Source of the DNA: Chloroflexota bacterium
GTDB lineage: Bacteria; Chloroflexota; Anaerolineae; DTLA01
Length of the DNA: 45,121 nt
Direction: 5' to 3'
Assembly: GCA_014874485.1 (NCBI GenBank)
Contig: JADBJK010000012.1
Span: forward strand, 1 to 45,121
Shown here: one piece after another, positions 4,674 through 34,830 of the stretch
How the letters are laid out: every line of letters starts with the position of its first letter
How positions within the stretch are numbered: position 1 is the stretch's first letter
The notes under the pieces: model-generated
What the model was told of the DNA's origin: nothing
What the model saw: only the letters and a program-made list of their open reading frames with translations
Databases searched by the model: none
Program-made: the position numbers and the translations under genes

Positions 4674-4689
4674 CTTCTCCCTCCCATCC

Positions 4690-4731: not shown

Positions 4732-4741
4732 AGTTGGTGCG

Positions 4742-5180
4742 TCTGTACGCGACCCGCCCCCCGTACGGGCGAACCGTTGTGTTCGCCCGCGAACCTTTGT
4801 GTTCGCCCGCGAAACCCCCGTACGGGCGAACCTTTGTGTTCGCCCTTTGTGTTCGCCCCATGTGTTCGCCCGCGAACCCCCCGTACGGGCGAACCTTTGT
4901 GTTCGCCCTTTGTGTTCGCCCCACGTGTTCGCCCGCGAACCCCCCGTACGGGCGAACCTTTGTGTTCGCCCCATGTGTTCGCCCCATGTGTTCGCCCGCG
5001 AACCCCCCGTACGGGCGAACCTTTGTGTTCGCCCCACGTGTTCGCCCGCGAAACCCCCGTACGGGCGAACCGTTGTGTTCGCCCGCGAACCTTTGTGTTC
5101 GCCCGCGAAACCCCCGTACGGGCGAACCTTTGTGTTCGCCCTTTGTGTTCGCCCCACGTGTTCGCCCCATGTGTTCGCCC
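4742..5180. repeat. GTTCGCCC / CGTACGGG interleaved repeat tract
   Basis: About 440 bases made only of short units: nineteen copies of GTGTTCGCCC and seven of CCGTACGGGCGAACC, joined by CGCGAAC, TTT, CAT or CAC linkers. CGTACGGG starts at 4763, 4819, 4882, 4945, 5008, 5058 and 5115 (periods 56, 63, 63, 63, 50, 57). Units can pair as GGGCGAAC with GTTCGCCC. The tract has few stop codons in any frame, so long open frames on both strands are artefacts. It ends at the very base before the mttB2 stop codon. Confidence 0.9.
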
Positions 5181-6611: not shown

Positions 6612-6667
6612 GACCAATTCCTCCTAGTTGTGTTATGTCAAATATCCGAAGTTCCGAAGCAATTCTA

Positions 6668-6787
6668 GGCGCGAGATTGCTTCGCTTCGCTCGCAATGAC
6701 ACGCGGCGGGTACGCCTCGCTTCGCTCGCAATGGCGGGCGCGAGATTGCTTCGCTCCGCTCGCAATGACACGCGGCGGGCAAGCCTC
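6668..6787. repeat. Two direct copies (69-bp period) of a GCGAGATTGCTTCG element
   Basis: GCGAGATTGC starts at 6671 and again at 6740, each followed by TTCGCT(T/C)CGCTCGCAATGACA and CGCGGCGGG(T/C). The sequence belongs to the TGTCATTGCGAG family also found at 1-187, 3105-3192 and 27255-27379. The remaining bases of the 6612-6809 gap show no confident promoter. Confidence 0.75.
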
Positions 6788-6809
6788 ACCACCCACCGAC
6801 AGCGCCGAA

Positions 6810-10453: not shown

Positions 10454-10459
10454 GGTCGC

Positions 10460-11917: not shown

Positions 11918-11956
11918 TTGAACCCTCTTTTCCTTCGTATCAGAGTATGCGCCGCT

Positions 11957-14793: not shown

Positions 14794-14801
14794 AGTCCGT
14801 C

Positions 14802-15815: not shown

Positions 15816-15835
15816 GATGCCGTCCCCGGTGCGGG

Positions 15836-16489
15836 CTAGGTTTCCCGTATGTCCACAATCTGCTGGCCTTCCACCTGCGACAGGGCCGCAGCCACCTGTT
15901 CCTTCGCAACGTAGCGAATCTTGACCACCGCGTCCCACTTGCCGGGCTCGCGCGGGGCGGGCGCGCCACCCAGGGCCAGGATGCCCCACCCCTGCGCGGC
16001 GATGGCCCCCACCAGTTTCGCCAGTTCCCCGCGCACGTCGGGCATGCGCACCGTAACGCGCACCGCGGGCGTGGTGGCCGCCATCATCTGCATCAGGTGC
16101 GCCATCATGTCCACGTCGGTCAGGATTCCCACGACGAACTCGCCTTCCAGCACGGGCAGGCAGCCTACCTTGCGCTCCACCATCACACGGGCGGCGTCCT
16201 CTATCGTCGCGTCGGGGTGAATCGTGATCACGTCCCGCGCCTTGATCATCACGTCCCGCACGGTGAGCCCCGACAGGTAGCGGGCGATCTCCCACACGTC
16301 CAGGCTGCTCAGGCGGCGCGGGTCCACCAGCAGCGAACTCCGCGTAACCAGCCCCAGCAGCCGCTTGCCCTCGCCGACGACCGGCAGGTGGCGGATGCTG
16401 TTCTCGCCCATCAGCCGCTGAGCCTCCACGATGGACATGGACGGCTCGGCCAAAAACGGGTGGCGGGTCATGTAATCCTTGACTAACAT
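15836..16489 (-). CDS. CBS-domain pair with C-terminal ACT-like domain
   Basis: A 217-residue protein with two CBS domains (about residues 5-60, starting LVKDYMTRHP, and 78-135, starting TVRDVMIKARD) and a C-terminal ACT-like domain (about 142-215). The layout recalls AcuB-like proteins. CBS pairs bind adenosine nucleotides or S-adenosylmethionine; ACT domains bind amino acids. Together they suggest a small ligand-sensing regulator of a neighbouring enzyme, not a DNA-binding protein. AAGGAGG lies five bases before the ATG. It sits between hutH and the ferredoxin gene in the same operon. Confidence 0.82.
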   Translation of the reverse strand: MLVKDYMTRHPFLAEPSMSIVEAQRLMGENSIRHLPVVGEGKRLLGLVTRSSLLVDPRRLSSLDVWEIARYLSGLTVRDVMIKARDVITIHPDATIEDAARVMVERKVGCLPVLEGEFVVGILTDVDMMAHLMQMMAATTPAVRVTVRMPDVRGELAKLVGAIAAQGWGILALGGAPAPREPGKWDAVVKIRYVAKEQVAAALSQVEGQQIVDIRET

Positions 16490-16507
16490 GCGCCTCCTTC
16501 CGCAGGA

Positions 16508-18085
16508 CTAGCCCCTGCCCTCCAGGGCCTCCTCCACTGCCCTGGCCAACGCGCCGCTTGCCACGAGCGCGACAACCGATTCTATGTACGGGTACATCAC
16601 GTCATCCCGCTCCAGGAACGGGACATGCCGACGAATCAGCGCATAGGCGGCCTGAGTGCCCTTGCCCAACCGCGCCGACGGGCCCAGAACATCGCGGCGG
16701 AAGTCAATCCCCTGCGCCGCCGCCATCAGTTCCAGCGCCAGAATCCGCTCCACGTTGGCGGCGATTCGCCGCGCGTGCCGTGCCGCCGTCGGCCCCATGC
16801 TCACGTGGTCCTCTATGTTCGCCGACGTGGGGATGGTGTCCGCGCTGGCCGGATGGGCCAGGACTTTGTTTTCCGACGCCAGCGCCGCCGCCGTGTACTG
16901 CGTCAGCATGAAGCCGGAGTTCAGCCCGCCCTCGCGGGTCAGGAACGCGGGCAGCGTCTCCGCGTTGCTGGACTCATCGGTGAGGCGCGCCAGCCGCCGC
17001 TCGGAGATGTTGCCCAGTTCGGTCAGCGCCAGGCTCAGGTAGTCCATGGCGATGGCCAGCGGCTCGCCGTGGAAGTTCCCGCCCGAAAGCACCGTCGCCT
17101 CGCCCGTGGCCTCGTCAAAGAAGATAAGCGGGTTGTCCGTCGCCGAGTTGAGTTCTATGCTCAGCACCCAACGGGCATAGGCGATGGCGTCGCGCACCGC
17201 GCCGTGCACCTGCGGGATGCACCGCAGGGTATAGGCGTCCTGGACGTTCAGCGGGTCGTCGGGGCGGGTGAACGTGCTGCCCTCAATCAGGCGGCGCAGG
17301 TAGGCGGCGCACTCCACCTGGCGGGGGTGCGGCCTCACGGCGTGGATGCGCGCGTCAAAGGCCCGCGGCGTCCCGTAGGTGGCCTCCAGGGTCAGGCACC
17401 CCGCGATGTCGGCCACGCGCGACAGGTTCTCCGCCTGCCACGTGGTCAGCGCCCCGATGGCGGCCATGAGCGCCGTGCCGTTGGTCAGGGCCAGGCCTTC
17501 CTTCGCCTCCAGCGTCGCAGGCTGAAGCCCGGCGCGCGCCAGGGCCTCGGCCCCAGGCAGCCGCTCGCCCTGGTACACCGCCTCGCCCAGGCCGATGATG
17601 GGCAGCGCCATGTGCGCCAGGGGAGCCAAATCCCCGCTGGCCCCCAGCGACCCCTGCGACGGCACCACCGGATGCACGCCGCGGTTCAGCATGTCCAGCA
17701 GCAGTTGCAGCGTCTCCAGGCGGATGCCCGAATGCCCCTTGGCGAGGGCGTTGGCGCGGATGAGCATCATGGCGCGGACCGTCGGCTCGTCCAACGGCTC
17801 GCCCACCCCCACCGCGTGGCTCATGAGGATGTTGCGCTGGAGTTGGCGAACCTGGTCGGGCGGGATGATGCGCCCCTTGAACGCCCCGAACCCCGTGGTA
17901 ACGCCGTACACCACCTCGCCGCGGGCGATGAACTCCTGCACTGCCCGTTCGGCCCGCCGTACCCGCGCGCGGCTTTCCTCGGACAACGTAACTTCTATGT
18001 GCTCGCCCCTGGAAGGCGCGTAGGCCACCGCCACCACGTCTTCCAGGGTGAGGCTATTTCCGTCAATCACCAGCCGAGAACTCAC
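16508..18085 (-). CDS. hutH: Histidine ammonia-lyase
   Basis: A 525-residue MIO-containing lyase that converts L-histidine to trans-urocanate and ammonia. The self-cyclising Ala-Ser-Gly triad is in GSLGASGDLAPLAH (residues 149-151 from the start used), and the catalytic tyrosine is in VVYGVTTGFGAF (Y60). The frame is open to 18154, but the GTG at 18085 begins VSSRLVIDGNSLTLEDVV, which fits the family N-terminus, and has GGAG nine bases upstream. It follows hutU after 136 bases that hold a strong hairpin. HutI and later enzymes are absent from the window. Related aromatic ammonia-lyases act on other amino acids, so a methylated histidine cannot be excluded. Confidence 0.93.
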   Translation of the reverse strand: MSSRLVIDGNSLTLEDVVAVAYAPSRGEHIEVTLSEESRARVRRAERAVQEFIARGEVVYGVTTGFGAFKGRIIPPDQVRQLQRNILMSHAVGVGEPLDEPTVRAMMLIRANALAKGHSGIRLETLQLLLDMLNRGVHPVVPSQGSLGASGDLAPLAHMALPIIGLGEAVYQGERLPGAEALARAGLQPATLEAKEGLALTNGTALMAAIGALTTWQAENLSRVADIAGCLTLEATYGTPRAFDARIHAVRPHPRQVECAAYLRRLIEGSTFTRPDDPLNVQDAYTLRCIPQVHGAVRDAIAYARWVLSIELNSATDNPLIFFDEATGEATVLSGGNFHGEPLAIAMDYLSLALTELGNISERRLARLTDESSNAETLPAFLTREGGLNSGFMLTQYTAAALASENKVLAHPASADTIPTSANIEDHVSMGPTAARHARRIAANVERILALELMAAAQGIDFRRDVLGPSARLGKGTQAAYALIRRHVPFLERDDVMYPYIESVVALVASGALARAVEEALEGRG

Positions 18086-18162
18086 GGCCAAACGCTCCAC
18101 CGTTATGTGTACTTCTGGATTCGGTTCTGTCCCTTGTCGGTGAACTACCCGCACATTCTCTT

Positions 18163-18197
18163 CAAGTGCGACGCACCTGCGAGGTGCGTCGCACTTG
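18163..18197. repeat. Strong hairpin (GTGCGACGCACC family) between hutU and hutH
   Basis: A perfect inverted repeat with 16-bp arms (CAAGTGCGACGCACCT and its complement) around a GCG loop. Relatives occur at 30452-30488, 39370-39402 and, in part, 44930-44960, so it is a dispersed repeat. In the hut transcript it would fold into a very stable stem after hutU and could lower or separate expression of hutH and later genes. Confidence 0.8.
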
Positions 18198-18221
18198 ACT
18201 GGTACCGCTCCGCAGTTATGT

Positions 18222-19871
18222 CTACTTCAGCATGGGAATCTTGATGCCGCGCTCTTTGGCCACCTGGATGGCGCGCTCGTATCCGGCGTCCGCATGGCGC
18301 ACCACGCCCATGCCCGGGTCGGTGGTGAGCACGCGCTCCAGCCGCCGAGCGGCTTCGGGCGTGCCGTCGGCCACGATGACCATCCCCGCGTGCTGGCTGT
18401 AGCCGATGCCCACGCCGCCGCCGTGATGGAAACTCACCCACGTCGCGCCGTTCACCGCATTGATGAGCGCGTTGAGGATGGCCCAGTCCGAGATGGCGTC
18501 GGAGCCGTCCTTCATCCCCTCGGTCTCGCGGCGCGGCGACGCCACCGAGCCGGCGTCCAGGTGGTCGCGCCCGATGACGATGGGCGCCTTCACCCGGCCG
18601 CTCGCCACCAGGTCGTTGAACGCCAGGCCGGCCTTGGCGCGCTCGCCGTACCCCAGCCAGCAGATGCGCGACGGCAGCCCCTGGAACTTGACCTTCTTCT
18701 GCGCCATCTTGATCCACCGCACCAGGTGCTCGTCGTGCGGGAACAGGTCCATGATGACCTGGTCGGTTACGTAGATGTCTCCCGGATCGCCCGAAAGCGC
18801 CACCCAGCGGAACGGCCCCTTGCCCTCGCAGAACAGCGGGCGGATGTACAGCGGCACGAATCCCTGGAAGTCAAAGGCGTTCTTTACGCCCATGTCGTAG
18901 GCGCGCTGGCGGATGTTGTTGCCGTAGTCAAAGACTACGCTCCCCTTCTTCTGGAAGTCCAGCATGGCCTGCACGTGGGCCGCCATGGATTCCATCGCGC
19001 GGCGCTTGAACTCCTCCGGGTCGCGCTCGCGGAGGGCCTTGGCCTCCTCAAAGGTCATCCCGCGCGGGAAGTAGCGCAGTGGGTCGTGGGCGCTCGTCTG
19101 GTCGGTTACCACGTCGGGCACGACGCCGCGCTCCACCAGTTCGGGCAGCACCTCCGCGGCGTTGCCGATGAGGCCCACCGAAAGCGGCTGCTCGGCCCTG
19201 ACGGCCTCCTCAACCCACGTCATTGCCTCCTCTATGTTCTCGGCGATGCGGTCCAGGTAGCCGGTGCGGAGCCGCCGCTCGGCGCGCCATCGGTCAATCT
19301 CCACCACCAGCGCCACGCCCTCGTTCATGGTAACCGCCAGAGGTTGTGCGCCGCCCATCTCGCCCAGGCCCGCGGTCAGGACAAACTTGCCCTTCAGGCT
19401 CGGCCAGCCCTGGGCCTTGGCGCAGGCGGCCAGGGTCTCATACGTGCCCTGGAGAATGCCCTGCGTGCCGATGTAAATCCAACTGCCCGCCGTCATCTGC
19501 CCGTACATGATGAGGCCCTTGCGCTCCAGTTCGTCAAAGTAGTCCTGCGTGGCCCAGGCGGGCACCAGGTTGGAGTTGGCGATGAGGACGCGCGGGGCGT
19601 CGGGGTGGGTCTTGAACACGGCGACGGGCTTGCCGCTCTGGACCAGGAGCGTCTCGTCGGGTTCCAGGTTGCGCAAACTCTCCAGAATCGCGTCAAAGCA
19701 CTCCCAGTTGCGCGCCGCCTTGCCGCTCCCCCCGTACACGATGAGGTTATCGGGGTCAAAGGCCACGTCGGGGTCCAGGTTGTGCTGAATCATGCGGTAA
19801 GCAGCTTCAATGAGCCAGTTCTTGCAGGTCAATTGAGTACCCGTAGGCGGATGAATCACTCGCTTGGCCAT
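18222..19871 (-). CDS. hutU: Urocanate hydratase
   Basis: A 549-residue NAD+-dependent urocanase that hydrates urocanate to 4-imidazolone-5-propionate. Family segments: [17 protein letters not shown] near the N-terminus, [18 protein letters not shown] (in part), [13 protein letters not shown] for nucleotide binding, and [14 protein letters not shown]. The C-terminus has [19 protein letters not shown]. Length is normal. The ATG at 19871 is preceded by GAGGGAG; a TTG two codons earlier is less likely. It starts 12 bases after the ABC ATPase stop, so it is co-transcribed with the transporter. That link suggests the imported compound is histidine-related. Confidence 0.96.
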
Positions 19872-19883
19872 ATCCAACTCCCT

Positions 19884-21965
19884 CTAGTTGTCAGTTTTCT
19901 TCGGAACGGTAACGACCGCCTCCACCTTCCGCAATTCCTCCAGCGGAATGTGGCAGAAAATCCGATGTCCGTTGCCCGCATCCTGCCAGGGCGGGATCTC
20001 GCGCTCGCAAATCTCGCCGAGTTTGCGCGGGCAGCGCGTGTGGAATCGGCAACCGCTGGGCGGGTTCAGCGCGCTGGGGACCGAGCCGCTCAGACGGATG
20101 CTCTTCTGCTGCACCGTCGGGTCGGGGAACGGCACCGCCGACAGGAGCGCCTCGGTGTACGGGTGGTACGGCGGCGCGTAGATGGCTTCCGCGGGGCCCG
20201 ACTCTACCACGTGACCCAGGTACATGACGGCGATGTAGTCGCAGAAGAACCGCACCACGCTCAGGTCGTGGGCGATGAACACCATCGTCGTGCCCAGTTC
20301 GGCCTGAATCTCCAGCAGCAGGTTGAGCACCGCCGCCTGCACCGAAACATCCAGCGCCGACACCGGCTCGTCGCACAGCACCATGGCCGGCAGGCCCGCG
20401 ATGGCCCGCGCGATGCCCACGCGCTGCTTCTCGCCGCCGCTCAACTGCCGCGGCAGGCGGTCGTAGTACCGCTCGCCCAACTTCATCATCTCCAGCAGGC
20501 GGACGACTTCGCCGCGCACCTGATTGCGCGGGACCTTCCGGAAGCGGCGCAACGGCCAGGCGATCTGCTGCCCCACGCTGAACGACGGGTTGAGCGTGGA
20601 ATCGGGGTTCTGGAACACCATTTGCAGGTTGCGGATGACCTCCAGGCTGCGTTTGGAGACCGGCACAGAGATGTCCACGCCCATAAACTCGAACTCGCCG
20701 CCCGTCGCCTTCTCCATGCCCACGATGGTCTTGACGAGGGTCGTCTTCCCGCAGCCTGACTCGCCCACGATGCCCAGCGTCTGCCCGCGCTTCACCTCCA
20801 CGCTCACGCCATCCACAGCCTTCACCAGTTGCTTGCGGCCCATGAGTTGCCTGGACGGCACCTCGTAGTAGGTCCTGGCATCCCGCACGCGGAGCAGGGG
20901 CTTCTCGTCGGCGGCAGCGACGTGCGTGGCCGGCAGGCGGGTGGGCACCTCGTCGGACGGCGCCCAGACCGACTGCGCTACCTCCTCGGCGAACAGGCAC
21001 CGCGCCCAATGGCCCGATGCCACCTCGCGCAGTTCGGGACGGGTCATGGAACACTCGGGACGCGCATAGGGGCACCGCGGCTCAAAGACGCACCCAGGCG
21101 GCAGGTTGTCTGGCGGCGGCACTCGCCCCTTGATGGGGTACAGGTAACTGCTGGCCTTGTCCATGCCCAGCCTCGGCACGCACCGCATCAGCCCCTGGGT
21201 GTAGGGGTGGTGCGGCCGCAGGAACACCTTCTCCACCGATGCGCGCTCCACCAACTCGCCCGCGTACATCACGCCCACCGTGTCGGACACGCGCGCGATG
21301 ACGCCCAGGTTGTGGCTGATGTACATGATGGCGGTGTCAAAGTCCTTCTGCAGTTCCTCCACCAGGTCCAGCACCGCCGCCTCCACCGTAACGTCCAGAG
21401 CGGTGGTCGGCTCGTCCATGATGAGGAGTGCGGGGTCGTTGAGCAGCGCCATGGCGATGACCACGCGCTGCTGCTGCCCGCCCGACAGTTGGTGGGGGTA
21501 GCGCCGCATGACGCTGGCAGGGTCGGGCATGTACACGCGCTGGAGCATCTGGATGCACCGCTCCTCGGCCTCCTTGCGCTTCATTCCTCGGTGCACCACC
21601 AGCACTTCGCTCAATTGCTCGCCGATGCGCAGCGAGGGGTTGAGCGCCTGCATGGGGTCCTGGTACACCATGGCGATGCGGTCGCCACGCAACCGACGCA
21701 GTTCCTCCTCGGAGCGGCCCACCAGGTCCTGCCCCTGGAACAGGATGCGCCCGTTGGTGATGCGCCCGTTCCGTCCCAGGAAGTTGACGATGCCAAAGGC
21801 GACGGTGCTCTTGCCGCAGCCCGACTCGCCCACGATGCCCAGCGTCTCGCCGCGGCGTATCTCAAACGACACGTTGCGCACCGCCGTTACGTCGCCCTTG
21901 CGCGTCTCGTAGGCGATGGCCAGGTCGTGCACCTTCAGGATGGGAGCACTACGCGCTTGTTGCAT
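19884..21965 (-). CDS. Peptide/nickel-type ABC transporter, fused ATPase (DppD-DppF)
   Basis: A 693-residue protein holding two complete ABC ATPase modules in one chain. Module one has Walker A GESGCGKST, signature LSGGQQQR and Walker B ALLIMDEPTTALD; module two has GESGCGKTT, LSGGEKQR and MVLCDEPVSALD. Each ends with the cysteine-containing tail of the oligopeptide/dipeptide branch (FEPRCPYARPEC and FHTRCPRKLGEICE). It powers import by the two permeases encoded just upstream. GsiA and YejF are known fused examples. The ATG follows AAAGGGAC. Peripheral membrane, cytoplasmic side. Confidence 0.94.
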   Translation of the reverse strand: MQQARSAPILKVHDLAIAYETRKGDVTAVRNVSFEIRRGETLGIVGESGCGKSTVAFGIVNFLGRNGRITNGRILFQGQDLVGRSEEELRRLRGDRIAMVYQDPMQALNPSLRIGEQLSEVLVVHRGMKRKEAEERCIQMLQRVYMPDPASVMRRYPHQLSGGQQQRVVIAMALLNDPALLIMDEPTTALDVTVEAAVLDLVEELQKDFDTAIMYISHNLGVIARVSDTVGVMYAGELVERASVEKVFLRPHHPYTQGLMRCVPRLGMDKASSYLYPIKGRVPPPDNLPPGCVFEPRCPYARPECSMTRPELREVASGHWARCLFAEEVAQSVWAPSDEVPTRLPATHVAAADEKPLLRVRDARTYYEVPSRQLMGRKQLVKAVDGVSVEVKRGQTLGIVGESGCGKTTLVKTIVGMEKATGGEFEFMGVDISVPVSKRSLEVIRNLQMVFQNPDSTLNPSFSVGQQIAWPLRRFRKVPRNQVRGEVVRLLEMMKLGERYYDRLPRQLSGGEKQRVGIARAIAGLPAMVLCDEPVSALDVSVQAAVLNLLLEIQAELGTTMVFIAHDLSVVRFFCDYIAVMYLGHVVESGPAEAIYAPPYHPYTEALLSAVPFPDPTVQQKSIRLSGSVPSALNPPSGCRFHTRCPRKLGEICEREIPPWQDAGNGHRIFCHIPLEELRKVEAVVTVPKKTDN

Positions 21966-21995
21966 GTCCCTTTGCCTTTCCCCGAATCTGTCGCA

Positions 21996-22880
<885 letters not shown>

Positions 22881-22922
22881 GTGCGCCTCTCCTCGCGTCT
22901 TGCCCACTCCGACGGTCCCCGA

Positions 22923-24224
22923 TTACGTGTAACGAATGCGTGGGTTGAGGAATGTATAGATAATATCGGCCACCAGTTGCGTCCCGACGGCGAGGGCCAC
23001 CATGACCATTGCCCCCGCCTCAATGGCGTTGATGTCCTTGAACAGCGCCGAGTCCAGCGTGTACATCCCCAGGCCAGGATAGCCAAACACCGACTCCACG
23101 ACCACGATGCCGCCGATAAGCCAGTTCACATGGAGCATAATCACAGTGATGGGGGCCATGAGGGCGTTGCGAACGGCGTGCTTGAACACGATGCGCCAGT
23201 AGGGCAAGCCCTTGAGGAACGCCGTGCGGATGTAGGGCGCGTTCATGACCTCTATCATGCTGGCGCGCGTCATGCGGGTAACGTAGCCCACCTCCACCAG
23301 CGTCAGCGTGAGCACGGGCAGGATGAGCAGCTTGGGCTGCATGAACGGCGCCACGTCGCTCACGAACACCGCCGCGCCTGGCAAGACCTTCAGCCAGAAC
23401 GCGAACAGCAGGATGAGGAACACGCCGCTGGCAAACTCAGGCACCGAGGTGGTGATCAGGCTGAACAGCGAGATGGTGCGGTCCGCGGCGCGCCCCTCCT
23501 TCAGGCCCGCCAGGATGCCCAAGAGGAGCGCGATGGGCATGATGATGACGAAGGCGATGCCCGCCAAGACGAACGAGTTGCGCAGCCGTCGCACCAGCGT
23601 AGGCCCCACCGGCTTGTTGGTGCGGAGGGAGATGCCTGGGTCGCCCCGCAGCAGCCCCTTGCGGAGCGGGTAGTACTCCACGCCGCTGGCTTCGGTCATC
23701 GTGCGGCCTGCCGAGGCGGGGCCGACCTTCTGCGTCTCCTCGCCCTTGCGCCACAGAACCACGTGGTCGGCGGTGTCCACGCCCCAGAAGATTTCGCTCC
23801 CGTCCTCGGCCACCTTCCAGTCCTCAAACAGGACCTCCTCGCGGGTCCCATCGGGGCTGAAGCGAATCTCCACGAGGCCCGTGCCCTTCTTCATGCGCCA
23901 CTGCTTCAGCGTGCCGTCGGGCTCCACCGCGTACCAAGACGGGCTATCGTACTGCCCCACCTGCGTGTAGCGCAGGGGCTTGCCCACCAGCCGCCACAAG
24001 CGCCAGTCGTTGCCCACCAGCCAGTCCAGGTAGCGCACCACCACGCTCTGGTCCAGCCCCATCTGGTCGCGCAGCAACTCCACCTGCTCCGGCGTCGCGA
24101 ACTGGCCCAGGATGTGCCGGGCCACATCCCCGGGCGCCACCTCCGAGATGAGGAAGATGGCGATGGACACGAGGAGCATCGTCAGGAGCATGAATCCGAT
24201 TCGGCGCAGGATGTACTTGGCCAT
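22923..24224 (-). CDS. ABC transporter permease (DppB-like) with large periplasmic insertion
   Basis: A 433-residue permease, about 100-130 residues longer than usual DppB proteins. TM1 is at residues 9-29 and the family segment QVELLRDQMGLDQSVVVRYL at 47-66 is normal. The usual short loop before GDPGISLRTNKPV (194-206) is here expanded by about 115 residues (72-187), rich in charged and aromatic residues with no membrane helix, so it should lie outside the membrane. The five later helices and the ASMIEVMNAPYIRTAFLKG motif region are intact. The ATG follows GGGGAG. The insertion may help dock the binding protein or its ligand (inference). Confidence 0.9.
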   Translation of the reverse strand: MAKYILRRIGFMLLTMLLVSIAIFLISEVAPGDVARHILGQFATPEQVELLRDQMGLDQSVVVRYLDWLVGNDWRLWRLVGKPLRYTQVGQYDSPSWYAVEPDGTLKQWRMKKGTGLVEIRFSPDGTREEVLFEDWKVAEDGSEIFWGVDTADHVVLWRKGEETQKVGPASAGRTMTEASGVEYYPLRKGLLRGDPGISLRTNKPVGPTLVRRLRNSFVLAGIAFVIIMPIALLLGILAGLKEGRAADRTISLFSLITTSVPEFASGVFLILLFAFWLKVLPGAAVFVSDVAPFMQPKLLILPVLTLTLVEVGYVTRMTRASMIEVMNAPYIRTAFLKGLPYWRIVFKHAVRNALMAPITVIMLHVNWLIGGIVVVESVFGYPGLGMYTLDSALFKDINAIEAGAMVMVALAVGTQLVADIIYTFLNPRIRYT

Positions 24225-24319
24225 GCTACTCCCCTAACTGGACGGAACCGCGTCTTCTAGACAATGCCCAACAGGTTGCAAGGGCGGCATGGGTTTGGGC
24301 TGTGTTGTCGCTCCAAGTT

Positions 24320-24354
24320 CGGCTCCCATGCCCGGCGAGCGAGCATGGGAGCCG
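24320..24354 (-). other. Hairpin between binding-protein and permease genes
   Basis: An inverted repeat with 12-bp arms (CGGCTCCCATGC / GCATGGGAGCCG) and an 11-nt loop sits in the 199-base gap after the binding-protein stop. No U tract follows. Such intercistronic hairpins often protect the upstream message from 3' decay, giving more binding protein than permease. The rest of the gap (24225-24423) shows nothing else. Confidence 0.6.
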
Positions 24355-24423
24355 GGTGTGCATTGTTACCGATGACCCAGGTGCTGCACGGGTCGCTCCC
24401 AGGGCGGAGACGGACGAACCGCG

Positions 24424-26145
24424 CTAGGCCTCCGGGTCGTACCAAGCGTTGTACAGGATGTCGTAGTTGGTCGGGTGCGCGCCCACGTTCTTGAACTTCT
24501 TGTTGGCAATGTACCAGACATTGGTCCAGAACGCAATTCCGACCGAGCCGCGCTCCATCTGGATGTCCTCCAGTTTGCACATGATGGCGCGGCGCTTCTC
24601 CACATCCAGCGTCCGCTCGGCTTCCTTGAGCAGCGTGGTGAACTCGGGATCCACCCAGTAGGTCTCGTTCCAGGGCACGGGCTTGCCGGTGTCGTCGGCG
24701 GTGTAGGCTAGCGCCAGCACCATGGTGCCCAGCGGGCGGTGCGCCCAGATGGTGATGCCCAGCGGGACCTCGGTCCAGATGTCCCAGTACTGCGCCGACG
24801 GCAGGATGTTGAGTTTGATGTCAAACCCGCCCGCGGCAGCCGACTCACGCAGGGCCTGCGCCATGGCCGGTTCGGCGCGCGCCTGCTGCGTGGACAGTTC
24901 CACCGACAGGCCATTGGGGTAGCCGGCCTCGGCCAGCAGTTTCTTGGCCCCTTCCGGATCGTAGGGCGGGATGTCCTTCGGGCAGTACTCGGGGTGAATC
25001 GGCGCGACGTGCGCGTCGTGGCCCAGGACGCCCTCGCCGAACCAGGCCAGGTCCAGCATCTTCTGGCGGTCAATGCACTTCTTGAGCGCCAGGCGCACCC
25101 GATTGTCGTTCCAGGGCTCCTTGTCCACACGCATGCGGATGACGAAGGTCTGGGCTGTGGCCGTGGAGTACACCTTGACGGTGGGCAGGTCCTTCACCGC
25201 CTGCCAGATTTCCGCGGACGGGTTGAAGATGTTGTCCACCTGGCCGCTCTGCATGGCCGCGATGCGGGCCGCGTCGTCCTGGCCCAGGTCCAGGTACACC
25301 AGTTTGTCCAGGTACGGGTAGGGCTTGCCGTCGTCGGCCATCAGCCAGTAGTCCTCGCGGCGGCGGAACACGGCGCGCTCGGTCTCGCGGAACTCCTCCA
25401 GCAGGAACGGCCCCGTGCCGATGGGCTGCTTCGTGATGTCGCCCTCAAAGGTGCGCGGGACGATCATCGCGGGATAGTGGAACAGGTGCTCGGGCACGGC
25501 GATCTGCGGCGAGTCCAGGTGCAGTTTGATGGTGTAATCGTCCACCTTCTCAATGCCGGTCGGCTGGAGGTAACTCAGCAGGCCCAGCATGGACGAGCCC
25601 ACGTCCTTGTCCAGCCACTGCTGGAAGTTGAAGATGACGTCATCGGCGGTCAGTTCCTGGCCGTTGTTGAACTTGATGCCCTTGCGGATGTACAGCGTCC
25701 ACTCCTTGACCTCGGCGTCGGCCTCCCACTTCTCCAGCAGCCAGGGGTGCGTGATGTTGTCATAGTCGGTATAGGTCAGGTACTCGCAGACCTGGCGGAA
25801 CTGGTTCACGCCTTCAATCCACGACAGGCGGGCGGGATGGTCCACGCGGGGCACGCGGGTTGCGATGGTCATGGTGCCACCGCGCTTGGGGCCGGCCGGC
25901 TTCGGGGTCGCGGTCGGCGGAACGGGTGTCGGCTGTACGGCGGGTGGATTCGTGGGTGCGGTGGTCGGGGTCGCTTTGGTGCCGCATGCGGACAGGAAAG
26001 CGGTCGCACTGGCCAGGGACATGCCCAGCAACGTGGCGTTGCGAAGGAACTCGCGTCGGGTGATCCGCCCCTTCTTGTAGAGTTCCTTCAACTCGGGGAT
26101 GTACGGGTGCTCGTGCTGGTTCTCATCCTTCTTGATGATCTCCAT
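24424..26145 (-). CDS. ABC transporter substrate-binding protein (family 5, Tat-type lipoprotein)
   Basis: A 573-residue extracytoplasmic solute-binding protein of the DppA/OppA family. The N-terminal tail carries a twin-arginine-like signal (TRREFLRNATLLG) followed by a hydrophobic stretch and a lipobox ending LSAC, then a Pro/Thr-rich linker, as expected for a cell-surface lipoprotein. The body has family segments such as GIKFNNGQELTADDVIFNF and PIGTGPFLLEEF. The ATG at 26145 follows GAGGAGGAG; earlier in-frame starts lack this. First gene of the ABC-hut-mttB operon, read from a consensus promoter 250 bases upstream. The ligand is not evident; methylated amino acids or small peptides are candidates. 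Confidence 0.93.
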   Translation of the reverse strand: MEIIKKDENQHEHPYIPELKELYKKGRITRREFLRNATLLGMSLASATAFLSACGTKATPTTAPTNPPAVQPTPVPPTATPKPAGPKRGGTMTIATRVPRVDHPARLSWIEGVNQFRQVCEYLTYTDYDNITHPWLLEKWEADAEVKEWTLYIRKGIKFNNGQELTADDVIFNFQQWLDKDVGSSMLGLLSYLQPTGIEKVDDYTIKLHLDSPQIAVPEHLFHYPAMIVPRTFEGDITKQPIGTGPFLLEEFRETERAVFRRREDYWLMADDGKPYPYLDKLVYLDLGQDDAARIAAMQSGQVDNIFNPSAEIWQAVKDLPTVKVYSTATAQTFVIRMRVDKEPWNDNRVRLALKKCIDRQKMLDLAWFGEGVLGHDAHVAPIHPEYCPKDIPPYDPEGAKKLLAEAGYPNGLSVELSTQQARAEPAMAQALRESAAAGGFDIKLNILPSAQYWDIWTEVPLGITIWAHRPLGTMVLALAYTADDTGKPVPWNETYWVDPEFTTLLKEAERTLDVEKRRAIMCKLEDIQMERGSVGIAFWTNVWYIANKKFKNVGAHPTNYDILYNAWYDPEA

Positions 26146-26390
26146 CGGATACTCCTCCTCTTGTGTAGAGAATCTGCCCACTCACGTGGGGTTCGGAAAC
26201 CTCCTTTGGCTCCGAAATCCGAGTCATCGCAGGAATCTGTCCGAGAGCACCTCCTTTCTACCCGCTGATGGGGATGTGAAACCGGGATGTCTTCGGCTAC
26301 GCTATGAGAGTGGTCCCTAGGATTGCCGCCTCATTCCGTTGCCTGCCTGTCCGCAGTCCGCCGACGGAGATATGGAACGGGCAGTTCTGA
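26146..26390 (-). other. Long 5' leader of the ABC operon
   Basis: About 245 bases separate the predicted transcription start from the binding-protein ATG. The leader RNA has two AAAGGAGG tracts with no obvious gene behind them (complements at 26251-26258 and 26200-26207), and a small hairpin CCCAC-GUGA-GUGGG with a GNRA-type loop (26177-26190). I do not recognise a known riboswitch; in particular no B12-box was seen. It might allow translational control of the operon. Confidence 0.45.
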
Positions 26391-27405: not shown

Positions 27406-28845
27406 CTACTCCAGCCAAATGCGGAACTCGCGGCGGATGGCCGCGTCCACATCCACAGGCCATGCGGGCGGCTGATGCGCCGCCAGAACCGCCGCCACCC
27501 GCTCGCACGCCCGCGCGCGGGCATCCCGCTTGCCGTCCTCCTCCCACATGGCGCGGGTCTGGCGGTCGGCCACGCGCGGGTAGAAGAACTCCCGCCGCAT
27601 GTGCCGCACCGTGTGCGCGTCCATGAGGTAGTGCCCGCCAGGCCCCACCCGACCGATGGCCTCCTGCGCCATCGTCTCCTCGGTTATGTCAATCCCACGC
27701 AGCACCCGCATCGCCATGCCCACGATCTCGTCGTCCATCACGGCCTGCTCCATGGAGACCGCGCTCATGTTGGTAACCATGCCGATGGCGTGGTGGATGT
27801 AGTTGCACCCGCCCATGGCCGCCAGCAGGAACGTCGCCATCTTCTCGTAGCCCGCCTGGGCGTCGGGAATCTTGGCGTCGCTCATCCCGCCGGAGCCGTA
27901 GATGGGCACCCCGTAGAAGTGCGCCAACTGCGCGGCCGCCGCCTGCATCATCCCGAACTCCACGGCCCCGCCCAGGTATCCGCCGGTCTTCATGTCGGCC
28001 ACGCCGGGGATGTACCCCGCGAGAACCGGCGTGCCGGGCCGCGCCAACTGGGTGAGCACGATGCCGCTCAACTGCTCCGCGTTCAGTTGCACCAGCGTCC
28101 CGGCCAGCGTTACCGGCGACGTGGAGCCGGCCATGGGCGCCGACGACAGCGCCACCGGAAGCCCGTGCCCGCACCATTCCAGCAGGATGTCCGTAACCTC
28201 GGTGTCCAGGCGCAGCGGGCTGACCATCCAACTGGTGATGGCCGAAATAAAAGGGCGCGCCCGCAGGCGGTCTTCTCCACCCGCCAGGAGCGCGCCCAGA
28301 CGAATCACCTGCCGCGCGCCCGCCACCGAATCCACGCCGCCCATGACGTGCTTGCCCGTGTTGCGCAGGCAGGTGTAGAATCGGTTGACCGGCACGTCTT
28401 CTCTCGGTACGTCCGTGGGGTACAGGGGCGCGACCACGAAGTCGCAGTGCGCCAGCGCGTCCGCCAGCCGCGCCATCATCGCCAGGTCCTGCAGCGTGCC
28501 GGGGCGCGGCGTGTCGGCCCCGGCGTCCAGAATCATGGTGGGCGAGCCGCCCGTGCCCGCGTACACGCGCCGGCCCTCCAGCACGATGTCGTCCGCCTCC
28601 GACCGCCCGGCCAGCAGCACCCGGTGCGGCACGGTCTTCAGCGCGGCCTGCACCATGGCGGGCGGGATGCGCACCCGATGGCCGTCCACCAATGCGCCGC
28701 CCTCGCGGTACAAGCGCAGCGCCGTCTCGTTCTCCACCAGGACGCCCGTCGTCTCCAGGACCGCCAGCGAGGCCCGGTGAATCTCCCGCACCTGCTCATC
28801 GGTCAGCGGACGATACTGCCCGCCCTCAGGACCCGGACGCGCCAT
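27406..28845 (-). CDS. MttB-family (COG5598) methyltransferase, divergent paralogue 5
   Basis: A 479-residue MttB-superfamily protein, the most divergent of the six. The N-terminus (EIHRASLAVLETTGVLVENE) and overall length fit the family. However the GxGSDC motif reads GTGGSPTMILD, TTKPIVFV is replaced by NTGKHVMGGVD, and the HDVGY segment found in the other five reads NYIHHAIGMVTN. The pocket segment is GYIPGVADMKTGG. No amber codon in frame. It starts 13 bases after mttB6 and is the last gene of the corrinoid operon. It may use another methyl donor, or have a structural or binding role. Confidence 0.85.
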   Translation of the reverse strand: MARPGPEGGQYRPLTDEQVREIHRASLAVLETTGVLVENETALRLYREGGALVDGHRVRIPPAMVQAALKTVPHRVLLAGRSEADDIVLEGRRVYAGTGGSPTMILDAGADTPRPGTLQDLAMMARLADALAHCDFVVAPLYPTDVPREDVPVNRFYTCLRNTGKHVMGGVDSVAGARQVIRLGALLAGGEDRLRARPFISAITSWMVSPLRLDTEVTDILLEWCGHGLPVALSSAPMAGSTSPVTLAGTLVQLNAEQLSGIVLTQLARPGTPVLAGYIPGVADMKTGGYLGGAVEFGMMQAAAAQLAHFYGVPIYGSGGMSDAKIPDAQAGYEKMATFLLAAMGGCNYIHHAIGMVTNMSAVSMEQAVMDDEIVGMAMRVLRGIDITEETMAQEAIGRVGPGGHYLMDAHTVRHMRREFFYPRVADRQTRAMWEEDGKRDARARACERVAAVLAAHQPPAWPVDVDAAIRREFRIWLE

Positions 28846-30530: not shown

Positions 30531-31163
30531 CTACGCCAACTTGCGGGCCACGTCCACGGCGGTAGCCGCGTCGGGCGCGTAGGCGTCGGCCCCGATCTGC
30601 TGGGCGAAGGCCGCCGTAACGGGCGCGCCGCCCACCATGATCTTGACCGAATCGCGCAGGCCCGCCTCTTGCAGCGCGTCAATGGTGGACTTCATGTTCA
30701 CCATCGTCGTCGTCAGCAGGGCGCTCATGCCCACGATGCGCGGCTTGTGCTCCTGCACGGCCCGCACGAAGGCCTCGGGCGCTACGTCCGTGCCCAGGTC
30801 CACCGTCTCAAACCCCGCGCCTTCCAGCATCATCTTCACCAGGTTCTTGCCGATGTCGTGCAGGTCGCCCTTCACCGTGCCGATGACGTACTTGCCCACC
30901 GTCGGCGAATCGCTTGCCGCCAGCAGCGGGCGCAGGACGTTCATCCCCGCGTGCATGGCGCGGGCCGCGATGAGCACCTCGGGCACGAACAGGTCGCCGG
31001 CCTTGAAATCCTTGCCCACCTGGTCCATGCCGGCGATGAGGCCGTCCTGGAGGATTTCCTTCGGCGTCAGGCCCGAATCCAGCGCCTGCTGCACCAGTTC
31101 GGCGACCTCTTCGTCCTCGCCCTCGTACAGTTTGCTCGCGATCTTCTGTAGAATGTCTGCCAT
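30531..31163 (-). CDS. Corrinoid (cobalamin-binding) methyl carrier protein, MttC/MtbC family
   Basis: A 210-residue carrier that cycles between Co(I) and methyl-Co(III). The N-terminal ~90 residues are the four-helix cap (LVQQALDSGLTPKEILQDGL in outline); the Rossmann-like B12 domain follows, with the cobalt-coordinating motif D100-x-H102-x-x-G105 in GDLHDIGKN and a C-terminal VGGAPVT. AAAGGAGG lies nine bases before the ATG. It is the only corrinoid protein in the window, so all six MttB homologues may have to share it or use carriers elsewhere. Placed between the ASKHA ATPase and mttB6. Confidence 0.96.
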   Translation of the reverse strand: MADILQKIASKLYEGEDEEVAELVQQALDSGLTPKEILQDGLIAGMDQVGKDFKAGDLFVPEVLIAARAMHAGMNVLRPLLAASDSPTVGKYVIGTVKGDLHDIGKNLVKMMLEGAGFETVDLGTDVAPEAFVRAVQEHKPRIVGMSALLTTTMVNMKSTIDALQEAGLRDSVKIMVGGAPVTAAFAQQIGADAYAPDAATAVDVARKLA

Positions 31164-31206: not shown

Positions 31207-33222
31207 TCACCGCGCCGGACTTGGCCGCCCGGCAGCCGTGAACGTAAGTTCCGTGCAAAGGTAGATTTCCTGTCCCCATCCCGCCTGGGCCACGGCGACG
31301 CGGTCTTCGCGCGCCACGTGCACCTCCACGTGTGCCGCGCCCGCCCGACGCACCGCCGCCTCCAGCACTGCGGGAACCGTCCGCTCGGCGTAGGCGACCG
31401 CGTCCTCCACGGTGGGGAAATCGCGCACGCCATCGGGCAGGTGCGCCCGAAACGCCTCGCCCCCCGGCAGCGGCTGCACCATGACGCGCCACCGCTGGAC
31501 AACCCCGCCCGCGACCGCGCCGACCGCATTGGCCACGTCCGCGTGCCGCGGGATGATCAGGTCCGTGTGCAGGAGTTCGGCCACGCGGGGCATGTACGCT
31601 TCCGCCGGCGCGCCGATGCCCACGACCGGCTCGCGCAGGTAGAGCCGGCAGCCCAGGCTGGAGTCCCCGTCGTTGCCCGCGGCCCGCGCGAACAGGGCGT
31701 CCACCGCGGGGGCCGTCCAGTCCACGGCGATGCCCTCGTCGCCCATGACCTTCGCCACCAGTTCCCGCGCGACCCGTTCGGACACCTCGGCCACCACCCG
31801 CTCGCAGAACGCCTCGGGGCTGCACCCCAGCCGCGCCGCGAGAATCCGCGCACCCGCCAGCGACGCCCGCCCGTCCCAGCGGCGGAACCGCCCCAGCGCG
31901 TGGAGCGCGTCAGTCGGTGTGAACCCGGCCCGCATGACCAGGCGCATCGCTTCCAGCCGCTCCAGCCGCCGCAGCGCCACCAGCGGGTACGCCCCCTCGC
32001 GGAGCAGCGCGGTCAGCGGCCTCGGCCCGCGCTCCAGGCTCCGCAGCAGCGACGCCTCCTCGTCCGACAGCGCGTTCCCTGCCCGCCCGTGCGCCAGGGC
32101 AAACTGCCCAACCCACGGCTCCTCGCGGTCGGCCGCCGCGTCGCGCTCCAATTCGGCCAGGACTTCCGGGTGTTGCGACGCCAGCAGGCACAGCGGCACC
32201 ACGCGGCCCGGCCCGATGTGCAGCCGCCGCTCGCCGTCCAGGCGCACCAGACTGTCGCCGCCCAGGCCCGTCGTGCGGACGTCCACGGCTTCCACCATCG
32301 TCTGCCACTGGCCCACGCGCGCGCCTTCGGGGTTCAGGTGCGGGCGACCGCCGCGCAGCGCAGCGATGTCGGTCGTCGTGCCGCCCACGTCCACCACCCA
32401 CACGTCCTGGCGGCCCGCCAGATGCCACGCGCCCACCGCGCTGGCCGCCGGGCCCGACAGAATCGTCTCCACCGGGCGGCGCATGGCCCACTCGGCGCGC
32501 ACCAGCGACCCGTCGCCCTTCACCACCATCAGCGGCGCGGAAACCCCGTGCTCCGCCAGCGTCCGCTGCACCGTCGCGATGAGGTCCTGCAGCAGGGGGA
32601 TGAGCCGCGCGTTCAGCGCCGCCGTCGTCGCCCGCCGCACGGCGTTCAGCCGCACCGACAGTTCGTGCCCGCAGGTTACGGGCAGCGGACGGCCATCCTC
32701 CGACGCCCGCGCCGTCATCCCCTCAATGATGGCCCGCGCCCGCAGTTCGTGCGTCGGGTTGCGCGCCGCGAAGTAGCCCGACACGGCGAAGGCCGCCACC
32801 CGCCCGATGCGCGACGCGACCGCCTCGCGCAGGGCCTCCTCATCCAGCGGCTCCACCTCGTCGCCCACGGCGTTGTGCCCGCCCCGCACGTACACCACGT
32901 CAGGCGTTACCAGCGCGCCCTCAAACCCGAACTCGCGCATCAGGTCGCGGTCGTAGCCGATGAGGACTAGGCACACGGGGCTGCCCTGCCCCTCCACGAT
33001 GGCGTTGGTGGCCAGCGTCGTGGACAGGGCGACCAGGCTCACGTCCGAGGGCGAGGCCGTCCCCGAACCCAGCACCGCCGAAATCGCCTCGCCGATGCCG
33101 ATGGCCAGGTCCCAGCGGGTGGTCAGCGCCTTGGCCGAATGGAGCACCTCGCCCGTGTCCTCGCGCACCAGCACGGCGTCGGTGTACGTCCCGCCCGTGT
33201 CAATGCCCAGCGCGATGGTCAT
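31207..33222 (-). CDS. Hydantoinase/oxoprolinase (HyuA-like) ASKHA ATPase, possible corrinoid reactivator
   Basis: A 671-residue HyuA-family protein with ASKHA ATPase signatures: IALGIDTGGTYTDAVLV at the N-terminus and VWVVDVGGTTTDIAALRGG mid-chain, plus GPAASAVGAWHLAG. The ATG at 33222 overlaps the stop of the MetH-like gene by four bases. Known relatives open hydantoin or oxoproline rings using ATP, usually with a HyuB partner, which is missing here. Other ASKHA proteins (RACo) use ATP to re-reduce Co(II) corrinoids. Lacking HyuB and embedded in a corrinoid operon, this protein is more likely an activator than a hydantoinase; that is an inference. It has no N-terminal 2Fe-2S domain as RACo has. 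Confidence 0.85.
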   Translation of the reverse strand: MTIALGIDTGGTYTDAVLVREDTGEVLHSAKALTTRWDLAIGIGEAISAVLGSGTASPSDVSLVALSTTLATNAIVEGQGSPVCLVLIGYDRDLMREFGFEGALVTPDVVYVRGGHNAVGDEVEPLDEEALREAVASRIGRVAAFAVSGYFAARNPTHELRARAIIEGMTARASEDGRPLPVTCGHELSVRLNAVRRATTAALNARLIPLLQDLIATVQRTLAEHGVSAPLMVVKGDGSLVRAEWAMRRPVETILSGPAASAVGAWHLAGRQDVWVVDVGGTTTDIAALRGGRPHLNPEGARVGQWQTMVEAVDVRTTGLGGDSLVRLDGERRLHIGPGRVVPLCLLASQHPEVLAELERDAAADREEPWVGQFALAHGRAGNALSDEEASLLRSLERGPRPLTALLREGAYPLVALRRLERLEAMRLVMRAGFTPTDALHALGRFRRWDGRASLAGARILAARLGCSPEAFCERVVAEVSERVARELVAKVMGDEGIAVDWTAPAVDALFARAAGNDGDSSLGCRLYLREPVVGIGAPAEAYMPRVAELLHTDLIIPRHADVANAVGAVAGGVVQRWRVMVQPLPGGEAFRAHLPDGVRDFPTVEDAVAYAERTVPAVLEAAVRRAGAAHVEVHVAREDRVAVAQAGWGQEIYLCTELTFTAAGRPSPAR

Positions 33223-33926
33223 TCGGCGTCCTCCCGCCTGCGCCAGCAGGTGTCGGCCAGGGAGCAATAGCGGCACAGCGCGCCCACGTGCGCCGACGCG
33301 AACCCAGGCCCGCTGCCAATGAGCGCCGAACACGACTTGAACGGCCGCAGGATGTTGTAGGGCGTCAGGGTTACGCCCACCGAATCCAGCGGCAGGAGCG
33401 CGCACAACTCGCGCTGCCCGTCCACCGGCCACCCTGCCAGCGACCCTGGGCTGAGCGCGGGCGACACGCCCCAGTGCTCTACCGCCGCACGCTCCTCGGC
33501 GATCCGCCGCACCGCCTCGCCCACCGCCCCCAGGACGAGCACCCCCGCCGTGTCCAGCATGTAGGACAGCAGGGCGTCTCCCCCCTGGTACAGTTCGGTG
33601 GCCCGCGCCTCCAGGTCAGGCCCGATGGTCCACACGGCCACGAAGGCGCGGCGCGCCTCGCGCAGAAGCGAGACCCCGTGTCCCATCTTCAGGCTGCGCG
33701 TGCCGTCGGCGGTGTGCAGGGTCAGCATCTCATCTGACACGCCCGCGACCGCAAACTCGTCCCAGACCGCCGCGGGGCGCGCCAAATCCAGCGCCATAGC
33801 CGCGGCCTGCTCAGCCGCCTGGCGTGCCATGGCGCTCTGGGGCGCGCGGCGACCTTTGCGCACCTGGGACTCCAGGATTGCGTCGGCGGTCAGCGTGATG
33901 GGAATGTCGCGCACGACGGTGGGCAT
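33219..33926 (-). CDS. MetH reactivation-domain-like protein with C-terminal Cys motif
   Basis: A 235-residue protein related to the S-adenosylmethionine-binding activation domain of B12-dependent methionine synthase. The telling segment is SPGSLAGWPVDGQRELCALL followed by SVGVTLTPYNILRPFKSCSALIG, which matches the MetH order (SPGY...W...Q / GVTLT...M.P.KS.SALIG). The C-terminus has CRYCSLADTC, three cysteines that could bind a metal or cluster, not part of MetH itself. ATG follows GAGGAAG. In MetH this domain lets SAM and an electron re-methylate inactive cobalt; here it may dock on the corrinoid protein during reactivation. It is translationally coupled to the ASKHA ATPase gene. Confidence 0.85.
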   Translation of the reverse strand: MPTVVRDIPITLTADAILESQVRKGRRAPQSAMARQAAEQAAAMALDLARPAAVWDEFAVAGVSDEMLTLHTADGTRSLKMGHGVSLLREARRAFVAVWTIGPDLEARATELYQGGDALLSYMLDTAGVLVLGAVGEAVRRIAEERAAVEHWGVSPALSPGSLAGWPVDGQRELCALLPLDSVGVTLTPYNILRPFKSCSALIGSGPGFASAHVGALCRYCSLADTCWRRREDAE

Positions 33927-33957: not shown

Positions 33958-34830
33958 CTACTTGGCCTGCGCGGCCTTCAGGCGCTTCTTGTAGTCCTTC
34001 AGGTAGCGCATGGCGTACTCATCGCGGCCCAACAGCAGGTCGGTCGCCAAGACGGCGGGCCGCACCTTCGCCACGTCCACAATCGGGCAGTTCACGCCGC
34101 GCTGAATGGCCATGGCGAGGAACGCCCAGTTGATGGTCTCGCGCTCGGGCAGGCCAAAGGAGACGTTGCTGGCCCCCAGGGTCATGTTCACGCCCAACTC
34201 CTCGCGCACCATGCGGATGGCGTCCAGCGTAACGAGGCCCGCGCGCGAATCGGCCCCCACGGTCAGCGCCAGGCAGTCAATGACCACGTCCTCGCGGGGG
34301 ATGCCCATGGCCTCGGCGCGCTCCACGATGCGACGGGCGACGGCCAGGCGGCCTTCCGCCGTGGGCGGGATGCCCTGCTCGTCCATCGCCAGGCCGATGA
34401 CCGCCGTGTGGAACTCGGCGACCAGGGGCAGGACGCGCTCCATGCTGGCCGCCTCGCCGTTGACCGAGTTGACCAGCGGCTTGCCGTTGGGGACCAACTC
34501 GCGGTACAGGGCGAGGGCGGCGCGCAGGGCGTTGGGGTTGGCGCTGTCCACGCACAGGGGAACGTCCACCGTCTCGGCCACCAGTTTCACGGCCTTGGGC
34601 AGCAAGTCCACCTCGTCAATGCCGGCGGCACCCACGTTAACATCCAGCACGTCGGCGCCGGCTTCCACCTGCGCTTCGGCCTCCTGGCGCACGATGTCCA
34701 GGTTGCCCTCGGCCAGCGCGGCAGCCAGGCGCTTCTTGCCGGTGGGGTTGATGCGCTCGCCGATGAGGACCGTCGGCTTGTCCGGGCCGATGACGACGGT
34801 TTTGCGGGCACTCCTCAGAACAGTCTCCAT
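33958..34830 (-). CDS. Methyltetrahydrofolate:corrinoid protein methyltransferase (MtrH/MtgA/AcsE-type)
   Basis: A 290-residue pterin-binding TIM-barrel enzyme that exchanges a methyl group between a methyl-corrinoid protein and tetrahydrofolate. Family segments in order: LIGERINPTGKK, ADVLDVNVGAAG, LCVDSANPNAL, KPLVNSVNGE and GASNVSFGLPERETIN. Length is typical of DhaS/MtgA/AcsE MeTr proteins. AGGAG lies six bases or so before the ATG. Transcribed right after the IclR gene and ahead of the activation genes. Together with MttB proteins it completes a three-component demethylase route into the C1-folate pool. Confidence 0.95.
   Translation of the reverse strand: METVLRSARKTVVIGPDKPTVLIGERINPTGKKRLAAALAEGNLDIVRQEAEAQVEAGADVLDVNVGAAGIDEVDLLPKAVKLVAETVDVPLCVDSANPNALRAALALYRELVPNGKPLVNSVNGEAASMERVLPLVAEFHTAVIGLAMDEQGIPPTAEGRLAVARRIVERAEAMGIPREDVVIDCLALTVGADSRAGLVTLDAIRMVREELGVNMTLGASNVSFGLPERETINWAFLAMAIQRGVNCPIVDVAKVRPAVLATDLLLGRDEYAMRYLKDYKKRLKAAQAK

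Follow-up and report, generated by a model that had tools for sequence, protein, structure and literature searches.

Enzymes of the MttB superfamily decide the fate of quaternary amines, directing them toward methyl-tetrahydrofolate or toward trimethylamine, and single genomes can carry around 40 copies. According to the accessible parts of PMC12155760, six members have an identified physiological substrate. Non-pyrrolysine MttB proteins methylate the Co(I) form of a corrinoid protein from a quaternary amine, which in the available text of PMC12155760 and PMC8604678 has so far been an acid-bearing one. The two relatives with solved structures used here are both methyltransferases: MtgB of Desulfitobacterium hafniense for glycine betaine (PDB 9yce, 2qne) and MttB of Methanosarcina barkeri, which contains pyrrolysine, for trimethylamine (PDB 7xcl). 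Four further non-pyrrolysine first methyltransferases of the superfamily, MtpB, MtcB, MtyB and MthB of Eubacterium limosum, act on proline betaine, carnitine, gamma-butyrobetaine and phosphocholine (PMC8604678, PMC12155760, accessible parts); these are likened to the protein studied here by description only. In MttB, the corrinoid receives hydrogen bonds from Gly372 and from the peptide Gly110-Thr111, and activation of pyrrolysine 334 is aided by Tyr364 (PMC9842639, in the part available). For MtgB, docking led to the proposal that Y94, N199, R309, H345 and F353 hold glycine betaine, a prediction rather than a measured pocket (PMC6855144, in the part available). Our literature search on MttB in Chloroflexi and Anaerolineae turned up gene inventories (PMC11264602 and PMC11650866, available portions), and the available portions of PMC12478193 contain nothing at the level of residues.

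Here we analyze six MttB paralogs (P1–P6) in a stretch of 45,121 nucleotides from a Chloroflexota genome (hereafter the window). An earlier note on this DNA had singled out P5 as having lost three motifs conserved in the other five paralogs, and had suggested that this could mean a new methyl donor, such as a sulfonium or aromatic methyl compound, or a non-catalytic partner.

P5 is a full-length member of the MttB superfamily

P5 (positions 27406-28845, minus strand) is encoded by an open reading frame of 479 codons with an ATG start, a purine-rich AGGGGGC just 5' of it and no internal stops. The reading frame, Pfam match and AF2 model mark the 479-residue product as a putative MttB-superfamily (PF06253) non-pyrrolysine methyltransferase. 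The Pfam MTTB profile matches with 382.5 bits (cut-off 25) over positions 24-489 of 500, bearing out the earlier description of P5 as full length, and this score is the highest among the seven MTTB genes of the genome (3.74 Mb, assembled into 122 contigs). The seventh of these genes (G000:C102:51304-52710; L005) lies separately, is very divergent (end branch 1.88) and has its own variant motifs.

Among solved structures, the nearest to P5 is MtgB (E 1e-87), followed by MttB (6.6e-69). Against TIGR02369, the equivalog model of pyrrolysine MttB, P5 scores 445.5, under the cut-off of 525; the position of MttB pyrrolysine 334 is occupied by M321 (27883-27885, minus strand), and there is no amber codon in the 479-codon frame. 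P5 is an ordinary member of a known superfamily and most likely a working enzyme.

The motifs absent from P5 are also absent from MtgB and MttB

The altered letters that had drawn attention to P5 can be read directly from its sequence: GTGGSPT (residues 97-103; 28537-28557, minus strand), NTGKHVM (residues 162-168; 28342-28362, minus strand) and IHHAIGM (residues 350-356; 27778-27798, minus strand), the last segment having one residue more than its counterparts in P1-P4 and P6. Conservation of the corresponding motifs in those five is less uniform than had been supposed: HD(V/I)G(Y/F) is indeed present in all five, but GxGSDC is found in four (P1, P2, P4 and P6, with P3 reading GPGLTST) and TTKPIVF in three (P1, P2 and P4, with TTKPVMA in P3 and SVKPNVY in P6).

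All three motifs are likewise absent from MtgB (PGYGAPF, NSDKCFM, LHTAGI) and from MttB (GTGVKVC, NTAKHFH, IYGAGM), and they are therefore not required by the family. Nor can they be called lost from P5, whose alternative letters are fixed across its own clade (see below). Comparison with the five window neighbors alone was misleading.

P5 belongs to a separate subfamily with its own signature

MttB-family matches to P5 occur in 156 of 298 genomes of the class, and tblastn picked up relatives in records titled Anaerolineae, Dehalococcoidia, Bacillota, Deltaproteobacteria, Methylomirabilota, Gemmatimonadetes and Spirochaetes. A 109-row tree combined class genomes, relatives from the named records and Bacillota-side genomes. 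The two acetogen-like Bacillota genomes examined encode several pyrrolysine MttBs. The Gemmatimonadetes and Spirochaetes relatives were left out of the trees, and rows with fewer than 430 aligned residues were excluded from alignment, trees and counts (including L008, the split frames of L011 and L017, the Spirochaete L019 and L020, L022 and L023). Three divergent rows (L091, L092 and the second of the L019 ORFs) are also missing from the 109-row tree, as are some duplicates. The characterized references placed in the trees were MtgB and MttB. In the Gemmatimonadetes homolog of P5 (L017:7977-9259), which is 64% identical, the coding sequence runs across two overlapping frames, with a frameshift or an assembly error as the probable cause.

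In the 109-row tree, P5 falls inside a 42-row clade (SH-aLRT 97), and P1, P2, P3, P4 and P6 group together in a 40-row clade (SH-aLRT 99), of which we know no characterized member. A 58-row tree made without the motif columns served as a separate check on this placement. It recovered a P5 subfamily of 14 rows (support 100/99), a 22-row clade containing the other five window paralogs (100/99) and, apart from the P5 subfamily, a clade of the MtgB rows (100/100). A two-side split put MtgB on the side of P5 and pyrrolysine MttB on the other. The tree placement that the earlier note had proposed as a check thus sets P5 in a subfamily apart from the other five, while the branch joining it to the MtgB side reaches only 93/86. 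Our literature search for a characterized member of the P5 clade, or for evidence of activity within it, found none.

Because the 42-row and 40-row groups were picked from the 109-row tree, the following counts describe the two clades and are no independent test of them: GTGG occurs in 42/42 P5-clade rows versus 0/40 in the other clade and [IVN]H[HDEN][AS]xG in 42/42 versus 2/40, while HD[VILM]G occurs in 0/42 versus 39/40 and GxGSD in 0/42 versus 33/40. Likewise, [TS]xKH is present in 37 of the 42 P5-clade rows and [TSG]xKP in all 40 rows of the other clade, and the loop residue 353 is present in every P5-clade row and in none of the 40 others. Patterns were sought anywhere in each protein, and a few matches fall elsewhere. 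A further segment, SWMVSPL (residues 205-211; 28213-28233, minus strand), carries a one-residue insertion, W206, which is found in 28/28 rows of an inner P5 clade and neither in the 40 other-clade rows nor in MtgB or MttB. In two further Bacillota-side genomes, the strict combination of GTGG and IHxA was seen in three of nine ORFs that had P5 as best query, and HDxG in none of the nine (neighboring loci overlap, and some ORFs are possibly counted twice); the strict signature therefore marks the sampled clade and is not universal among P5-like proteins.

By these sequence criteria, P5 belongs to a distinct, well-conserved MttB subfamily with its own signature, on the MtgB side of the tree. As P5 comes from another branch, it did not lose what its window neighbors have, and its oddness is a subfamily difference. 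The view of P5 as a paralog degenerated by motif loss is thus contradicted by its having a subfamily of its own on the motif-free tree and a signature held by all 42 rows.

The predicted fold is intact and the gene is under purifying selection

An AF2 model of P5 based on an alignment of 37 sequences (A1) had a pLDDT of 95.8 and a pTM of 0.93; this alignment was used in place of the single sequence, which had given a pLDDT of 37.9. Compared by VIA, the model matches MtgB (9yce) with a Z of 54.9 and MttB (7xcl) with a Z of 55.7, at 1.5 Å rmsd over 463-467 residues, and its TM values to solved structures are 0.93-0.94 (0.93 to MtgB 9yce). The model thus predicts an intact MttB TIM barrel. The altered segments coincide with the predicted strands E95-98, E166-169 and E349-354 or with their ends, where the active site of MttB is located.

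P5 is under purifying selection, with a dN/dS of 0.169 against its G040 ortholog (479 codons) and of 0.126 against its G001 ortholog (404 codons). Its neighbors gave 0.088 (P6 against G040), 0.067 and 0.093 (P3 and P4 against G001). Comparisons of P6 and MtgC with L055, and of P3 and P4 with L054, were not used, as these are paralogs or fragments with no ortholog on the contig. In the same genome pair, the value for P5 (0.169) is about twice that for P6 (0.088), which argues for a somewhat weaker constraint.

Predicted active-site residues point away from glycine betaine and trimethylamine

Residues G97, G99, K165, H351, G355 and W434 of P5 are each found in 82/82 rows of the two clades. G97-T98 align with the corrinoid-contacting Gly110-Thr111 of MttB and are kept. 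Met360 of P5 stands at the position of MttB Gly372, which is Phe in MtgB; H351 aligns with MttB Tyr364, and M321 with pyrrolysine 334. The adjacent H352 aligns with MtgB His345, a position held by Asp in 40/40 other-clade rows.

P5 and MttB share the family and fold, the Gly-Thr-Gly corrinoid contact, NTxKH (the [TS]xKH form of this segment is also that of pyrrolysine MttB), an SDAKxPDxQAG segment and the equivalent of Tyr316. They differ in pyrrolysine versus Met321, Tyr364 versus His351 and a loop that is one residue longer in P5. With MtgB, to which it is about 35% identical, P5 shares the family and fold, the absence of GxGSDC, TTKPIVF and HDVG, the loop length, the His at the His345 position, Gln306 and Asp371, whereas MtgB has Tyr94, Asn199, Arg309 and Phe353 where P5 has Gly, Ser, Tyr and Met, reads PGYG instead of GTGG and lacks the W206 insertion. 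From the clade of the other five paralogs, with which it has the superfamily, the gene cluster and the invariant residues in common, P5 is set apart by that clade's GxGSD (33/40), HD[VILM]G (39/40), Asp at the His345 position and loop shorter by one residue (both 40/40).

Only one of the five residues proposed by docking to bind glycine betaine in MtgB is kept in P5 (Y94 to G100, N199 to S205, R309 to Y316, H345 to H352, F353 to M360), whereas in four MtgB-clade relatives the Y, N, R and H are all retained and position 353 is Tyr. Four differing docking residues and a missing pyrrolysine suggest that the donor of P5 is probably a quaternary amine other than glycine betaine; on the predicted pocket and the missing pyrrolysine, both glycine betaine and trimethylamine are disfavored. 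In the comparison of active sites proposed earlier, family invariants and the Gly-Thr corrinoid contact are kept and four of the five glycine-betaine docking residues are changed. The idea of a new methyl donor stands insofar as one other than glycine betaine or trimethylamine is plausible, but nothing in this analysis points to a sulfonium or aromatic compound. As a betaine-active homolog of the kind that the earlier note regarded as telling against a new donor, MtgB goes part of the way: it also lacks the motifs and has the same longer loop with His, but only about 35% identity.

P5 recurs next to a paralog from the other clade

P6 (28859-30361, minus strand), an MttB paralog of the other clade, adjoins P5, 13 bp upstream. 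P6 is preceded in turn, at a distance of 169 bp and in the same orientation, by the gene for an MtgC/MtbC-type corrinoid protein (30531-31163, minus strand; TIGR02370 226.8 versus a cut-off of 215.3), the presumed methyl acceptor; MtgC models score best with this protein, yet under their cut-offs. From this arrangement we infer co-expression of P5, P6 and the corrinoid protein. The same gene run continues upstream with a hydantoinase/oxoprolinase-A-like protein placed by family match (31207-33241, minus strand) and a protein that matches no Pfam family (33219-33926). At 33958-34830 (minus strand) lies the gene for an MtgA-like pterin-binding methyltetrahydrofolate:corrinoid methyltransferase (PRK07535 275.2 versus 259), the presumed second methyltransferase. 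RACo-type activators are encoded elsewhere in the genome. An ABC importer of the Opp/Dpp type (OppA, B, C and fused ATPases; 19884-26181, minus strand) recurs near P5 homologs. P1-P4, of the clade of P6, span 3222-13438 on the minus strand (P1 3222-4673, P2 5181-6617, P3 10460-11917, P4 within 11957-13738). Between P1 and P2 lies a tandem repeat array (4769-5182; periods of ~63 and ~126), whose minus strand reads as a low-complexity ORF of 172 codons, and between P2 and P3 a molybdenum hydroxylase (6810-10453) with fused 2Fe-2S and Mo domains and a separate FAD subunit.

Pairing was counted on fetched contigs whose P5-like gene has at least 52% identity, excluding the window and counting any contig fetched twice as one; L055, which ends inside P5 and is unscorable, and G054:C200 were left out, and 13 contigs remain. 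A P6 homolog stands directly beside P5 in nine of these (L054, L056, L057, L059, L060, L061, L062, L065, L066), while the P5-like gene has no adjoining P6 in four (L058, L063, L064, L017). At Deltaproteobacterial loci, too, P6 is not alongside the P5 homologs. A corrinoid-protein homolog is part of the cassette in 7/13 (L011, which shares its contig with L062, together with L054, L056, L061, L064, L065 and L066), and in 7/13 contigs Opp-type transporter genes are nearby. Some cassettes have a second P5-like copy (L056, L060), and the order in L056 (corrinoid protein, P5-like copy, P6, P5) suggests an older three-methyltransferase cassette. The recurrent pairing of P5 and P6 across two different clades is the one curious point.

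At one Deltaproteobacterial locus (L012:4020-9443), the P5 homolog follows genes for an MR_MLE-type dehydratase, glycerate 2-kinase and enolase and precedes an Opp-type transporter; the dehydratase, glycerate 2-kinase and enolase were considered as pointers to a single substrate and gave none. A glycerate-kinase-like gene is also found near the P5 homolog of L018.

Discussion

We favor, with a probability of about 0.78, the reading that P5 is a catalytically competent non-pyrrolysine first methyltransferase of a distinct MtgB-side subfamily, with a quaternary amine as the most likely donor. The TIM-barrel pocket would bind a quaternary ammonium compound that is not glycine betaine and is perhaps imported by the neighboring Opp-type importer; P5 would methylate, with one of its methyl groups, the Co(I) form of the adjacent corrinoid protein of the MtgC type, from which the MtgA-like enzyme would then move the methyl to tetrahydrofolate. 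Methyl transfer, donor class and methyl path are proposed here by analogy with characterized family members.

That P5 is instead a glycine-betaine methyltransferase like MtgB is unlikely. MtgB is its top solved-structure match and lies on the same side of the tree (93/86), H352 stands at the His345 position in a loop of equal length, and MtgC models give the neighboring corrinoid protein its best scores, albeit under their cut-offs; yet P5 keeps one of five docking-proposed residues, of which four MtgB-clade relatives retain Y, N, R and H. An assignment to glycine betaine from the structural match alone was dropped, given that four of the five proposed pocket residues differ. Sulfonium donors such as DMSP, or methylated aromatic compounds, are quite improbable. 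Sulfoniums are near isosteres of betaines, and the pocket of P5 is unlike that of MtgB. On the other side, the neighbors' family matches give no pointer to sulfonium or aromatic catabolism, the substrates named for the superfamily in the available text of PMC12155760 are trimethylamine, carboxylated quaternary amines and phosphocholine, and PMC13222342, in the part available, assigns O-demethylases and CdmB to the UroD superfamily.

A role as non-catalytic partner or scaffold of P6, as the earlier note had entertained, is just as improbable: a P6 homolog adjoins the P5-like gene in 9/13 contigs and dN/dS is about twice that of P6, but the family invariants and the corrinoid-contacting Gly-Thr are kept, the predicted fold is intact, dN/dS (0.13-0.17) is well below 1, and P5-like genes also occur without P6 (L058, L063, L064, L017 and the Deltaproteobacterial loci). 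We consider it extremely unlikely that P5 is a decaying copy with lost active-site motifs; the three motifs of its neighbors are absent and its dN/dS lies above those of P3, P4 and P6, yet its alternative letters are fixed in 42/42 clade rows under purifying selection, with an intact predicted fold, and the same motifs are missing from MtgB and MttB. A more specific proposal, slightly less doubtful than a scaffold but still unlikely, is that P5 and P6 form an obligate pair, as a mixed hexamer or a two-step relay, demethylating a histidine-derived betaine such as hercynine, whose product would enter HutH-HutU, HutI, glutamate mutase and methylaspartate ammonia-lyase. HutH, HutU and methylaspartate ammonia-lyase are encoded among the MttB genes (13393-19877), and glutamate mutase GlmE and HutI elsewhere in the genome (G000:C51:6212-7558; G000:C56:53053-54186); from the gene content, the route from histidine to methylaspartate looks present for those steps, and a histidine-derived betaine is conceivable. 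Among the loci examined, HutH/HutU occur near P5 only in the window and in two genomes of the same genus (L054, HutU; L055, both). The link being confined to one genus, we do not take a histidine-type substrate as the main reading. Of the literature matches listed for MttB with hercynine or histidine betaine, none has MttB in its text.

As the motif difference is one between subfamilies, motif loss as first stated does not matter. P5 represents a subfamily for which we found no characterized member, and it gives a clear target together with a conserved partner gene; the single feature that deserves testing at the bench is the pairing of P5 with P6, from different clades.
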